Source of the DNA: Phenylobacterium sp.
Lineage (GTDB): Bacteria; Pseudomonadota; Alphaproteobacteria; Caulobacterales; Caulobacteraceae
DNA: 33,044 nt
NCBI RefSeq assembly: GCF_016793225.1
Contig: NZ_JAEUMN010000109.1
Coordinates: 1 to 33,044, forward strand
Reading direction: 5' to 3'
Every line of letters starts with the position of its first letter. The stretch's first letter is position 1. The notes below the pieces were generated by a model, which ran no database searches, was not told where the DNA came from, and worked only from the letters and a program-made list of their open reading frames with translations. A program made the translations under genes and the position numbers. Below, in pieces: positions 28,205-33,044 of the stretch.

Positions 28205-28747
28205 TCATCGTTGCCCGATCCCGATCACCACCGTCTGGGCGTTGCGGTTGCGCGCCCAGGCGTCCTCGGTCGAGGCCGGGTCGAGGGGGCGCTCCTTGCC
28301 GAAGGACAGCGTGGCGATCCTCGCGGAGGCGACGCCGCTCGTGATCAGCGCCTGACGCACGGCCGCGGCGCGCCGGGCGCCGAGCGCCAGGTTGTACTCG
28401 CGCGTTCCCCGCTCGTCGGCGTGGCCCTCGATGCGGACGCCGACCGAGGGGTTCGCCGCCAGCCAGGCGGCCTGGCGGCGCAGGGTCTCGCGATCCTCGC
28501 CGTCGAGGGCGTCGCTGTCGAAGTCGAAGTAGACCCGGTCTTCCCCGGCCGCCGCGATCAGCGCCTGCTGGGCCGACGGATCCGCGTCGGGCGCGCTCGG
28601 CGGTGCGGGGGTGGGCATGGCCGTCGTCGGCCCGGCTTCCGCGGGCGTGGCGGAGGCGCCGACCGCGGGCTTGGGCTTGGTCGCGCAGCCCGACAGCACG
28701 ACGCCGGCGGCGGCCGCCGCCAGGATGATGCGAGCGGAGGTGATCAT
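28205..28747 (-). CDS. OmpA/Pal-like outer-membrane lipoprotein (180 aa)
   Basis: Peptidoglycan-binding lipoprotein. The signal ends in the lipobox LSGC (about residue 21), followed by a Pro/Ala-rich linker (residues 25-62) and an OmpA domain: VYFDFDSDALDGEDRETLRRQAAWL, IEGHADERGTREYNLALGARRAAAVR with the Asp and Arg that bind meso-diaminopimelate, and RNRNAQTVVIG at the end. It resembles Pal, but no tol genes are adjacent, so it is more likely an additional OmpA-type lipoprotein than the Tol-Pal member. ATG 28747 overlaps the stop of the small gene upstream (ATGA). Confidence 0.88.
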   Translation of the reverse strand: MITSARIILAAAAAGVVLSGCATKPKPAVGASATPAEAGPTTAMPTPAPPSAPDADPSAQQALIAAAGEDRVYFDFDSDALDGEDRETLRRQAAWLAANPSVGVRIEGHADERGTREYNLALGARRAAAVRQALITSGVASARIATLSFGKERPLDPASTEDAWARNRNAQTVVIGIGQR

Positions 28748-29034: not shown

Positions 29035-29127
29035 AACCGCCAGCATAACGAACTTATAAGGACGCGGCGTGGCCGCATAAGCCGGCCATAATTGACCCCG
29101 CGCCGGGCCTGATGGACTGAGAACCTC

Positions 29128-30627
29128 ATGTGGTGGTCGCCGGCTCGGGCGCGGGAAGCAGGTCGCGAACGGAGTTTCCTCCGCCAGGTCCTGCGCTACG
29201 CCGCCGTGGCGCCGATCATCGCCGCGGCCACCGGGATCGCTGAACTCTTCTACCGACTGACGGGAAGCGACCGTCTCTCAGGGATCTTCCTCGCAGGTGT
29301 CCTGCTGGCGGCCTTCCTGCTGGGTTCCGGGCCGGCCTACGTCGCCGCGGGCCTTGCCTTCGTCGTCTACTTCTACTGGGTCGATCCGCGCTTTCAGTTC
29401 ACCTTCGGCTCGCCCGAGGATTTCAACGTCCTGATGGTGTTCCTCGCGGTGTCGACGCTCACGGGGCTTCTCACCGGGCGCGTCCGTGACGAGGCCGCCC
29501 GGGCGAAGGCGCGCCAGCGCCTGAACGCGATCCTCTTCGAGGCGAGCCGGGAGTTCTCGGCGAGTTCGGACGAGGCGCACATCCGCGAAAGGCTCGTCGG
29601 TCGCCTCGCCGAAGCGGCCCATGGCGAAGCCGTCGTCAGCGATGGGGCGGCGATGCTGTGCGCGCCCGACGACCGCGAACGGCCCGACCTGACGCAGCGG
29701 CTGCTCCACCTCGAAACGCGGGCGGATGCGGCGGCGCGGACCGCAGGCGACGACGGATGGCGGCTCCGGCCTCTGCGGGCCGGGTCCGCGGCGCTTGGCG
29801 CGGCGGCTTGGCGGCCTGCGGGGGCCGACCTCAGCGATGACGAGCTGACACTGGTCGAGATCCTCGTCGATACCGGGGCTGCGGCGATCGCCCGCGCCCG
29901 ACTGGCCGCCGGCAAGGCCGAGGCCGAGGCCAGGGCCCGGACCGAGCACCTGCGTGATGCGCTGCTGTCGTCCATCTCCCACGATCTGCGCACGCCGCTC
30001 GCGGCGATCCTTGCCTCGGCCACCAGCCTGGAGGCCTTCGGCGGCTCGTTCGACGGCGAGACCCGGCAGGACCTCCTGGCGACGATCCGCGAGGAGGCGG
30101 AGCGCCTCGACGGCGTCGTCGCCAACCTGCTCAACATGAGCCGCCTGGAGGCGGGGGCCCTGACGCTGCAGGCCGCGGCCTTCAACGTGCCCGAGGTCGT
30201 GCGCCGCGTGCTGGAGCGTCGGCGTTGCGCGGACAAGCGCCACGTCTCGACGGAGATCGATCCCCGCACGCCGGAAGCCATCGGCGACCCCGTGCTCTTC
30301 GAGCAGGCTCTGGGCAACGTCGTGGACAACGCGCTCCGCTATGCGCCGCTCCGCTCGCCCCTCAGCATCGTGGTGCGCCATGAGGACCCGGGCGTGGTGG
30401 TGGAGGTCTGGGACGAGGGGCCGGGCGTTCGCGACGCTGACACCGAGCGGGTCTTCGAGAAGTTCTACCGGGCCCCGGAGGCGGCGCAGACCCAGGGCAC
30501 CGGTCTCGGCCTGGCGATCACCCGCGGGCTGCTGACGGCCATGGACGGCGAGGTCTGCGTGCAGAATCGTCGGGACGGCGTGACGGGGCTCGTGGTCCGC
30601 CTGCGCCTCCAGGCGGCCGGCGCATGA
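29128..30627 (+). CDS. KdpD-like sensor histidine kinase lacking N-terminal sensor module (499 aa)
   Basis: Membrane histidine kinase. It starts almost directly with the DUF4118 four-helix domain (about residues 22-118), goes through a GAF-like linker (145-255), then HisKA with phospho-acceptor His285 in LLSSISHDLRTPLAAIL, and the HATPase domain (N box EQALGNVVDNALRYAP, DEGPGV, FEKFYRAPEAAQTQGTGLGLAI). Standard KdpD proteins are about 890 residues with KdpD and Usp sensor domains at the front; these are absent, and no frame upstream could supply them. It therefore lacks the part associated with c-di-AMP or K+ response and may respond to other cues. ATGA overlap joins it to the response regulator gene. 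No kdpFABC lies in the window. Confidence 0.88.
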   Translation: MWWSPARAREAGRERSFLRQVLRYAAVAPIIAAATGIAELFYRLTGSDRLSGIFLAGVLLAAFLLGSGPAYVAAGLAFVVYFYWVDPRFQFTFGSPEDFNVLMVFLAVSTLTGLLTGRVRDEAARAKARQRLNAILFEASREFSASSDEAHIRERLVGRLAEAAHGEAVVSDGAAMLCAPDDRERPDLTQRLLHLETRADAAARTAGDDGWRLRPLRAGSAALGAAAWRPAGADLSDDELTLVEILVDTGAAAIARARLAAGKAEAEARARTEHLRDALLSSISHDLRTPLAAILASATSLEAFGGSFDGETRQDLLATIREEAERLDGVVANLLNMSRLEAGALTLQAAAFNVPEVVRRVLERRRCADKRHVSTEIDPRTPEAIGDPVLFEQALGNVVDNALRYAPLRSPLSIVVRHEDPGVVVEVWDEGPGVRDADTERVFEKFYRAPEAAQTQGTGLGLAITRGLLTAMDGEVCVQNRRDGVTGLVVRLRLQAAGA

Positions 30628-31322
30628 GCGGCCCGCGGCTCCTTCTCGTGGACGACGAGGCGCAGATCGTCCGGGCGCTCAGCCCGGCCCTGCAGGCGGC
30701 CGGCTACGAGGTGACCGTGGCGACGGGGGGCGCCGCCGCCCTGACTCAGCTCGCCGCCGAGCCCTGCGACGCGATCATCCTCGACCTTGGACTTCCCGAC
30801 ATGGACGGCAAGGAGGTGATCGGCCGGGTCCGGGAGTGGTCGGACGCCCCCATCATCGTGCTCTCCGCCCGCGACCTCGAGAGCGAGAAGATCGCTGCGC
30901 TGGACGCCGGGGCCGACGACTACGTCAACAAGCCCGTCGGCGTGGGCGAGCTGCTGGCCAGGGTGCGCGCGTCCCTGCGTGGCCGGGAACGGCGGTTCGC
31001 CTCGCAGGCGCGCTTCCGGACGCGTGACCTGACCATCGACTTCGCCGTCCGCCGGGTCTGGCTGGAGGACCAGGAGGTCCACCTCACCCCGCGCGAGTAC
31101 GATCTCCTGCGCACCCTGGCGCGGCATGCGGGGCGGATCGTCACCCACCGCCAGCTGATCGCGGCGGTCTGGGGGGCCCGGGCGCAGGTCGACGCCCAGT
31201 TCGTCCGGGTGCTGGTGGGGCAGCTCCGCCAGAAGCTGGAGGCCGAGCCCTCGTCGCCCCGCCTGGTGCGGACCGAGCCCGGCCTGGGCTATCGCCTGGC
31301 CGCGGAGGACGAGGTCGCCTGA
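30624..31322 (+). CDS. KdpE-like OmpR-family response regulator (232 aa)
   Basis: Cytosolic regulator partnered with the preceding kinase. The receiver domain (residues 4-118) has the acidic pair (VDDE), phospho-acceptor Asp54 in AIILDLGLPDMDG, the switch Ser in IIVLSAR and Lys in YVNKPVGVGELLARV. A winged-helix DNA-binding domain (about 130-228) follows: VHLTPREYDLLRTLARHAGRIVTHRQLIAAVWG and TEPGLGYRLA. 'DAGADDYVNKPVGVGELLARVRASLR' is close to KdpE. It overlaps the kinase stop (ATGA). Targets are unknown; with no kdpFABC adjacent, they lie elsewhere in the genome. Confidence 0.9.
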   Translation: MSGPRLLLVDDEAQIVRALSPALQAAGYEVTVATGGAAALTQLAAEPCDAIILDLGLPDMDGKEVIGRVREWSDAPIIVLSARDLESEKIAALDAGADDYVNKPVGVGELLARVRASLRGRERRFASQARFRTRDLTIDFAVRRVWLEDQEVHLTPREYDLLRTLARHAGRIVTHRQLIAAVWGARAQVDAQFVRVLVGQLRQKLEAEPSSPRLVRTEPGLGYRLAAEDEVA

Positions 31323-31338: not shown

Positions 31339-32409
31339 CTACGCCGTCTGCTCCGTCTCCACCCGCGAGGGGTCCAGGGCGTGCAGGTTGGCGGCGCGCA
31401 CCTCCGCGCCCTCGGCGTCGTAGAGGAACGGCAGGAACGCGTAGCGGGTCCCGCGCGTGACGCGGGTGGCCTCGTGCAGGAGCGAACACGAGAAGACCAC
31501 GGCGCCGCCGGTCGGCGGCCGGTAGGTCCTTCGCCCGAACTCCGGGAAGCGCAGGTCGCCGCCCTCGAAATCCTCGGCGTTCAGGTTGATGGAGACGGCG
31601 AACTTCCGGTGCGCGGTGCCGAGCGTCGTGTCGTCGCGATGCGGGTTGAACCAGCCGCCCTCCTCGGCGTCGTAGCACCCTACGATGTACCGCTCGATGT
31701 GCGTGGTCCGGAACTGGAACGCCCTGCGGATCTCGGGCAGGAGGCGATGGGAGATGCGGGCGCGGCAAGCGGCGATGAGCCTCTCGTCCGTGATCGAGGC
31801 GTCCCGGCGGCTCTTGAAGTCGCTCAGCACCCCGATTGTGCGTCCGTCCCGGTCCACCATGGTCCCGGACGGCAGACCTCCGGCCGCGGCGTAGTAGTCG
31901 ATCAGCCGCTGGCAGAACGACGGCTCGAAGATGCGGGGAACGATCAGGACCGGCGCGTGGAGCGGCGTTCCGGCGTGCCGGTCGGGGTCGCCGCGGGACG
32001 CCAGATGGCCGATCAGCTCTCCGCCCTGCTCGGGCTGGACCCACGCGAGCACGCGCAGCGACGGATCGATCGCCACCCACAGCGGCTTGACCCCGCCGGC
32101 CTCGTCCACCGCGCCGTAGAGCCGGCGCAGCTCGCCGTCGACGTCCGAGAACCAGCGGACTGGCGGCTCGTTGCGCGCCGCGGCGTACGATTCCGCGTCC
32201 GGCAGCACGCCGAAGAACACCAGGCGGTCGTCGTCGAATGCGGCGCTCCGACTTCGCACCAGCGCCAGGGCGGCGTCGCGCTCCGGTCCCGGCCCGGGCA
32301 GGAACGCGAGCACGATGTACCGTCCGCCGAGGCTGCCGAAGGCGAACCTGGGATTCACCGGAGAGGGGGCGCTGAACAGCGGGGCTGGCGCCCCCAGCGT
32401 CAAGGCCAT
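31339..32409 (-). CDS. peroxiredoxin-like domain fused to 2OG-Fe(II) oxygenase, prolyl-4-hydroxylase type (356 aa)
   Basis: Two-domain protein. Residues 1-145 look like an AhpC/TSA-type thioredoxin fold (LGAPAPLFSAPSPVNP, LGGRYIVLAFLPGPGP, LVFFGVLPD, PLWVAIDPSLRVLAWV) but contain no cysteine at all; the first Cys is 166, so the fold cannot be redox-active. Residues 155-340 form a prolyl-4-hydroxylase-type dioxygenase: HRD metal motif at His257/Asp259 (NPHRDD), distal His312 and 2-oxoglutarate Arg322 ten residues later (LLHEATRVTRGTRYAF). The oxygenase therefore looks catalytically complete. It lies 24 bp downstream of a proline-rich repeat protein on the same strand, a possible substrate. No signal peptide is present, so it should work in the cytoplasm. 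ATG 32409 fits the start of the peroxiredoxin-like domain. Confidence 0.82.
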   Translation of the reverse strand: MALTLGAPAPLFSAPSPVNPRFAFGSLGGRYIVLAFLPGPGPERDAALALVRSRSAAFDDDRLVFFGVLPDAESYAAARNEPPVRWFSDVDGELRRLYGAVDEAGGVKPLWVAIDPSLRVLAWVQPEQGGELIGHLASRGDPDRHAGTPLHAPVLIVPRIFEPSFCQRLIDYYAAAGGLPSGTMVDRDGRTIGVLSDFKSRRDASITDERLIAACRARISHRLLPEIRRAFQFRTTHIERYIVGCYDAEEGGWFNPHRDDTTLGTAHRKFAVSINLNAEDFEGGDLRFPEFGRRTYRPPTGGAVVFSCSLLHEATRVTRGTRYAFLPFLYDAEGAEVRAANLHALDPSRVETEQTA

Positions 32410-32433
32410 GATCGTCGAGCCGCTCGCAATGGC

Positions 32434-33042
32434 TCAGAACACGGCGTCGTCGAACAACGACCGCATCCGGGCGAGTTCCTCGTCGGTGGCCGGCAACAGG
32501 TCGACGCCGTCCTCCCGGTAGTGGACGACGAGCGGCCGCGCGAAGACCACCACGGGGGCCTCCGCCCCGGCGGGATCGGCCGGGGCTTCGCCGGGCGGCC
32601 GCCACCCGGGATACGGAGGCCGCCAGTCCGGGTAGATGGCCGGATGGTTCCAGGGATCCAGCGAGGGGTCCTCGGCCGGCAAGGGCTCCAGCGCCGCGGG
32701 CGGCGGCTCAGTCGTCGTCGCCGGAGGCTCCGCCGCGTTCGCCGCAGGTGGCGGGCCGCTCGGTGCATAGCCCTCCGTACGGCCATGGGCGTTGTACCAG
32801 TAGTCGGCGTAGTCCTCGAGGCTGGTCCCGCCCACGCGCTGCACCCAGGCGTCGGAATGGCGGTCGTTGTTGGGGCCGTAGTACTCGGTGAAATAGGCCT
32901 GGAAGACGTCCGGGCGGTCGGCCAGGATCTTCGCGAGCGGGATCCCGTCGATGGTCGTGCGGCCCGAATGGAGCTCTCCGGGGACGCCCTCGGCAGGCGC
33001 CGCAAGGGCGGCGCTGGGCGCATATCCCTCGAAGCGGCCGTG
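32434..33042 (-). CDS. proline-rich protein with 85-residue tandem repeat, 5' end outside window
   Basis: The frame stays open to the window edge, so at least 202 residues are visible and the N-terminus is missing. The visible part begins HGRFEGYAPS and the same block, HGRTEGYAPS, returns exactly 85 residues (255 bp) later, at 32787 on the minus strand; codons are also similar, which supports a true tandem repeat. Each unit ends in a short Tyr/Trp-rich core (LEDYADYWYNA before HGRTEGY) and then Pro/Ala-rich sequence. After the last visible repeat comes a proline-rich linker (PPPAANAAEPPATTTEPPPA, then PWNHPAIYPDWRPPYPGWRPPG) and a final 40-residue domain. No known family was recognised. It is the upstream gene of an apparent operon with the prolyl-hydroxylase-like oxygenase 24 bp away. 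Confidence 0.75.
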   Translation of the reverse strand, partial: HGRFEGYAPSAALAAPAEGVPGELHSGRTTIDGIPLAKILADRPDVFQAYFTEYYGPNNDRHSDAWVQRVGGTSLEDYADYWYNAHGRTEGYAPSGPPPAANAAEPPATTTEPPPAALEPLPAEDPSLDPWNHPAIYPDWRPPYPGWRPPGEAPADPAGAEAPVVVFARPLVVHYREDGVDLLPATDEELARMRSLFDDAVF

Positions 33043-33044
33043 GG

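Follow-up and report, generated by a model that had tools for sequence, protein, structure and literature searches.

To our knowledge, bacterial protein hydroxylases have few known substrates. The Pseudomonas EF-Tu prolyl hydroxylase is a bacterial 2-oxoglutarate (2OG) protein hydroxylase with a translation factor as substrate (PMC4682802), a kind to which the oxygenase studied here, termed OX, would also belong. In a search with a profile of 34 OX homologues, the C-terminal half of OX matched PKHD-type hydroxylases (PiuC, 9ghl and 9qn1, 1e-6; Sbal_3634, 3dkq) and procollagen lysyl hydroxylases (6ax6, 6fxk), and the solved relatives recovered comprised these two groups and one unnamed 2OG-Fe(II) oxygenase. 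The match is weak even at its best (1e-6), and OX differs from these enzymes by an extra N-terminal domain, in which profile positions 2-143 aligned to the BCP-type peroxiredoxin 3drn at 5e-7. A further difference is that no iron-uptake gene was recognised by eye beside the OX gene of the DNA analyzed here.

Two further comparisons concern the neighbours of OX. An adjacent two-component system resembles KdpDE in its DUF4118-HisKA-HATPase kinase and its receiver/Trans_reg_C regulator; it differs from KdpDE in a short kinase without a detected KdpD N-terminal part and in its predicted targets, which are OX, an OmpA-like lipoprotein and a protein termed REP. The units of REP are similar by profile to NPDV...HYxxYGxNEGR modules of phage tail or ejection-type proteins (profile-profile probability 94.7%); they differ in being longer, in carrying NND..S.AW..RVGG and in belonging to small cellular proteins. 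Among the titles and abstract openings found by literature searches, none deals with the OX domain fusion, the proposed regulon or REP.

The locus and its two proteins

The window, meaning the whole stretch of DNA analyzed (33,044 nt), is a complete contig (C155) of a 4.6-Mb Phenylobacterium genome. OX occupies positions 31339-32409 of the minus strand (356 aa) and REP positions 32434-33042 of the same strand, its 5' end open, with 24 bp between them, so that the coordinates confirm the gene order and spacing from which an enzyme and its substrate had originally been predicted. REP is truncated because the window ends with the contig at 33044. A second contig, C143, carries the 5' part of REP and closes with 141 nt identical, in reverse complement, to the end of the window; this exact overlap suggests that the two contigs are neighbors in the assembly graph. 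The first in-frame start past the predicted upstream control site described below is a TTG at C143:10063, and the joined protein of 343 aa resembles the 345-aa REP of locus L064 in length and layout. In other genomes, homologues cover OX and the window portion of REP almost completely, and the two are therefore not chance open reading frames. Gene calls at related loci came from a simple codon-position script, with OX in L061, L131 and L143 recovered by tblastn.

OX combines a peroxiredoxin/thioredoxin-like N-terminal domain (residues ~1-145) with a PKHD/lysyl-hydroxylase-like 2OG-Fe(II) dioxygenase domain (~150-345). The complete 2OG-Fe(II) site of the original prediction is borne out by an intact HxD..H..R motif (H257-x-D259, H312, R322), with H257, D259 and H312 kept in all 34 aligned homologues and R322 in 33, the remaining one having a gap. 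Family matches were fainter: AhpC/TSA (PF00578) at residues 6-117 scored 22.3 bits, under the Pfam cut-off of 26, and a PKHD-type dioxygenase match at 217-346 fell under the NCBIfam cut-off. PF13640 was not listed for the window OX at E<=1 and scored 45.8 bits (cut-off 27) for the 76% identical relative at L064. The N-terminal AhpC/TSA-like domain had not been mentioned in the original prediction. Residues 1-165 of the window protein contain no Cys, and the peroxidatic Cys of a peroxiredoxin is thus missing; in 16 of the 34 aligned rows, this stretch contains one or two Cys. As the window OX has no Cys before residue 166, peroxidase chemistry is not expected. An AlphaFold model of OX from five sequences had low confidence (pLDDT 41).

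REP was present in 12 of 101 Phenylobacterium genomes. Its 3' part in the window (202 aa) ends in a Pro-rich tail closing with SLFDDAVF. The Pro/Trp-rich motifs noted earlier (PPYPGWRPP and AEPPATTTEPPPA) are indeed there, and Pro accounts for 15.3% of the 202 window residues. As a correction to the original prediction, the Pro/Tyr/Trp block DPWNHPAIYPDWRPPYPGWRPP (32593-32658, minus strand, coordinates counted by hand) is not the repeat of this protein. The true repeat is a helical unit of ~55 aa, RPDV...YYG.NND..S.AW..RVGG.T.EDYA.YWY...G..EGY, which occurs two or three times per protein. The joined protein has two such units, one on C143 and one, unit 2, at 32758-32958 of the window (minus strand, 67 aa including lead-in), for which the model of a homologue predicts four helices. 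That model, made by AlphaFold from the two units of the L064 REP, shows two four-helix domains with block pLDDT of ~80-90, a low-confidence linker and a pTM of 0.53. The Pro/Trp block was found in four of the 12 REPs, two of the five adjoining OX and two of the seven others, and thus does not track with OX.

Database searches placed REP in no known family: no Pfam family matched at cut-off, the window part had no NCBIfam match, and no PHROG was convincing. Comparison with the PDB gave no match to its fold (best E 3.4), the best viral match (E 0.049) is a lead only, and the phage, plasmid and viral collections searched contained no REP. Profile comparison of REP with OX gave no match. One REP-like unit (22.9 bits) was seen in an ejection-protein-like open reading frame (PHROG 598) at positions 388-1956 of locus L103 in genome G011; the unit in this ORF, perhaps of a prophage, hints at a fold common to both protein types. 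With the start codons adopted, no REP has a strongly hydrophobic N terminus, which makes a signal peptide unlikely on sequence grounds. Several REPs open with an FDW-like motif and several close with SLF(D/E).. (window/C143, L064-L067, L071, L072), and both termini appear, from these motifs, as if recognized by something.

A predicted control site at unlinked loci

Convergent with OX lie the plus-strand genes of the two-component system, a KdpD-like short sensor kinase (29128-30627) followed by a KdpE-like response regulator (30624-31322) with a receiver and a Trans_reg_C DNA-binding domain. DUF4118, HisKA and HATPase_c exceeded cut-offs in the kinase; the KdpD N-terminal sensor domain, which together with a kdpFABC target characterizes potassium-responsive KdpDE, was not found. 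No kdpA match was detected in four of 10 genomes searched (G000, G121, G031 and G024), the window's own genome included, so that Kdp-mediated potassium transport is unlikely to be the target of the KdpDE-like system there. An OmpA/Pal-like lipoprotein gene (28205-28747, minus strand) is divergent from the kinase gene, and we infer that an OmpA-like regulon member points to an envelope response.

The short kinase was detected (E<=1e-80) in all 12 REP genomes and in 47 of the 101 genomes of the genus, a co-occurrence with a naive hypergeometric probability of 4e-5, uncorrected for kinship. The neighborhoods analyzed were those of 87 OX genes from 60 genomes, the genus having, by our count, at least ~150 OX places. 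The KdpDE-like genes lay within 2.5 kb of OX in 31 of the 87 cases, 26 of them with OX and kinase head-to-head, four convergent (including the window) and one in the same direction. To judge from these neighborhoods, the window's OX lineage has its lasting partner in the two-component system.

The 26 head-to-head OX/kinase intergenic regions share words, the best of them in 25 regions as compared to 9-11 in shuffled sequences. From these words we derived CAAGCATAAGAAGCTTATAAG, present in 25 of the 26 regions, which in reverse reading is an 11-bp tandem repeat. The resulting candidate site is a 21-bp tandem, CTTATAAGCTTCTTATGCTTG, with the consensus half-sites CTTATAAGCTT and CTTATGCTTG at an 11-bp period. 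As a rule, OmpR/PhoB-type regulators target tandem half-sites one helical turn apart. Site orientation was identical in all 25 regions, and the 26th (L112) contains a 21.6-bit copy.

A matrix built from the 25 intergenic copies also found the site upstream of REP, at L064, L065, L066, L067, L069, L071, L072, L073, L074 and weakly on C143. This corresponds to 10 of the 11 testable REPs, the G035 REP lying outside the comparison as its upstream DNA is off the contig; the exception, G014, had no site at REP or at its OX/kinase locus. At L069, L071, L072 and L073, REP has the site with neither OX nor the kinase in the DNA seen. An in-frame TTG or GTG candidate start follows the site by 54-60 nt in eight of the 10 REPs (in L067 as the second candidate).

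A genus-wide pattern search allowing at most one mismatch returned 39 sites, distributed over 30 of the 101 genomes, compared to three for a reversed control. Classified by hand, 36 could be placed, 25 at kinase/OX promoters, nine at REP and two at OmpA-like genes, the latter directly preceding genes at other loci (L244, L245); the remaining three, all with one mismatch, lay elsewhere (G431:C5, G013:C284 and G480:C106). In 841 kb of genus DNA selected because it contains OX or REP, the matrix gave 35 sites of >=16 bits, every one of them at a kinase/OX, REP or OmpA-like promoter; 24 had trained the matrix and 11 had not. These genome counts are for related genomes, so that independent events are far fewer than the counts. 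In 205 kb covering 20 OX loci of other genera, no site reached 13 bits.

The window's own genome contains no site with at most one mismatch and only weaker copies. One (29040-29060, plus strand) lies between the OmpA-like and KdpD-like genes, where CCAGCATAACGAACTTATAAG scores 29.3 bits with three mismatches to the consensus pattern and reads CTTATAAG towards the OmpA-like gene. The copy at the window's REP is weak (16.7 bits), its second half-site being degenerate. The G121 OX lacks its own site, and among the scanned loci with OX away from the kinase, none has a 16-bit site except L145, whose contig begins just upstream; only one OX lineage would therefore be in the regulon.

From the common predicted site and the KdpDE-like kinase in all 12 REP genomes, REP and OX probably belong, both as outputs, to a single very small regulon, a reading to which we assign a probability of roughly 70%. 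Co-regulation at unlinked loci outweighs adjacency as evidence of common function. In the mechanism that we propose, an orphan KdpDE-like system encoded beside its targets would bind the 21-bp tandem site (an 11-bp direct repeat) through its KdpE-like regulator and thereby regulate its own locus together with OX, an OmpA-like envelope lipoprotein and, in roughly one-eighth of Phenylobacterium species, REP. OX would then be a cytosolic 2OG/Fe(II) protein hydroxylase that modifies a protein, with its catalytically dead peroxiredoxin fold as docking domain, and REP a multi-unit helical protein, cytosolic or exported, that joins the same response as a partner or one substrate. Defined by a sharp DNA site, a regulon of about four genes would shorten the list of possible partners for one lineage of an alphaproteobacterial dioxygenase family that is widespread. 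For an orphan KdpDE-like system, it suggests targets outside potassium transport.

Distribution, adjacency and competing readings

OX was found far more widely than REP, in 79 of 101 Phenylobacterium genomes (E<=1e-30) and, at class level, in 73 of 385 sampled genomes (E<=1e-40), the window's own genome being counted in both. Among 398 sampled genomes of the order, REP matched credibly only in the window's genome; the sole match outside the genus, spanning 35 columns in G369, lies opposite a sensor-kinase-like open frame and was dropped as chance. All 12 REP genomes contain OX, a weak co-occurrence with a probability of 0.043 by chance, and 67 of the 79 OX genomes lack REP. Five of the 12 REP loci adjoin OX (window, G442, G031, G002 and G455), all five at the KdpDE-like locus. 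The G011 REP adjoins the kinase genes only, and the other six have neither OX nor kinase in the DNA seen, the upstream side of the G035 REP being off its contig. The joint conservation in related genomes that the original prediction named as its check thus broke down in part.

These distributions bear first on the reading that OX and REP are a dedicated pair in which OX hydroxylates REP, for example at the conserved Pro of RPDV or at Asp/Asn of the NND loop, and not in the Pro/Trp block. The intact active site of OX, the shared predicted site, the presence of OX in every REP genome and the adjacency of the two genes with REP before OX (window, G442) as well as OX before REP (G031, G002 and G455) all fit this reading. 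Against it stand the rarity of REP relative to OX in the genus, the wide occurrence of OX in the class with no credible REP outside the genus among the genomes sampled, the slight weight of finding OX in every one of the 12 REP genomes, the Pro/Trp block, which does not follow OX, and G121, which has a 75% identical OX and the kinase locus with no REP. On balance we consider the dedicated pair unlikely. The same doubt attaches to its fuller version, in which a dedicated two-component system would have as nearly its whole regulon a hydroxylase with a dead-peroxiredoxin docking domain and its client REP, an undescribed multi-unit helical protein. Such a circuit, if real, would be a stress-responsive bacterial protein modification system dependent on oxygen and 2-oxoglutarate. 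Of the substrate-enzyme pair first proposed, a functional link is supported by the common predicted site and by OX and kinase in all REP genomes, and a wide OX with a rare REP speaks against a dedicated pairing. The predicted co-regulation supports REP and OX belonging together and does not support REP as the reason for OX; in most species OX must have another target, and REP could be an added client, adaptor or parallel output where it occurs.

A distinctly less likely reading is that REP came to lie near OX once, at a rearrangement-prone locus, and was kept there by descent with no functional link. REP is near only five of the 87 examined OX genes, and the five OX-adjacent REPs fall within one supported half of the REP tree (seven rows, 100/99), so that adjacency may trace to a single event. 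In the OX tree, where the window OX groups with those of G442 and G121 (100/100), the adjacency labels need at least two changes. Against this reading, the two genes are adjacent in two orders, and the predicted control site of OX and the kinase also stands upstream of REP at loci unlinked to them.

An RTX link, in which OX would form part of a general system for type I secretion and RTX modification, with REP as one secreted client, appeared plausible from L196 (OX by RTX-like proteins, by eye), L202 of G523 (OX directly after type I secretion ATPase, HlyD and TolC-like genes, by eye), L063 and the RTX gene adjoining REP in L071, and was rejected as highly improbable, since RTX genes identified by a simple motif occur in four loci holding five of the 87 OX genes, as against 52-199 RTX repeat matches per genome in 14 genomes (no enrichment in an informal comparison), and the REPs scanned have no RTX repeats (PF00353, GGxGxDxUx nonapeptides).

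Some OX genes occur in other arrangements. Tandem pairs account for 24 of the 87 examined OX genes, for example at L063 (5996-8112), L119, L129, L130 and L163, and the L063 pair has an ssb-like gene (by eye) close by. OX homologues were also found on two plasmids (L164, L165), one from Niveispirillum, between sigma/anti-sigma pairs, and one from Rhizobium, beside a DUF692/DUF2282/DoxX cluster.
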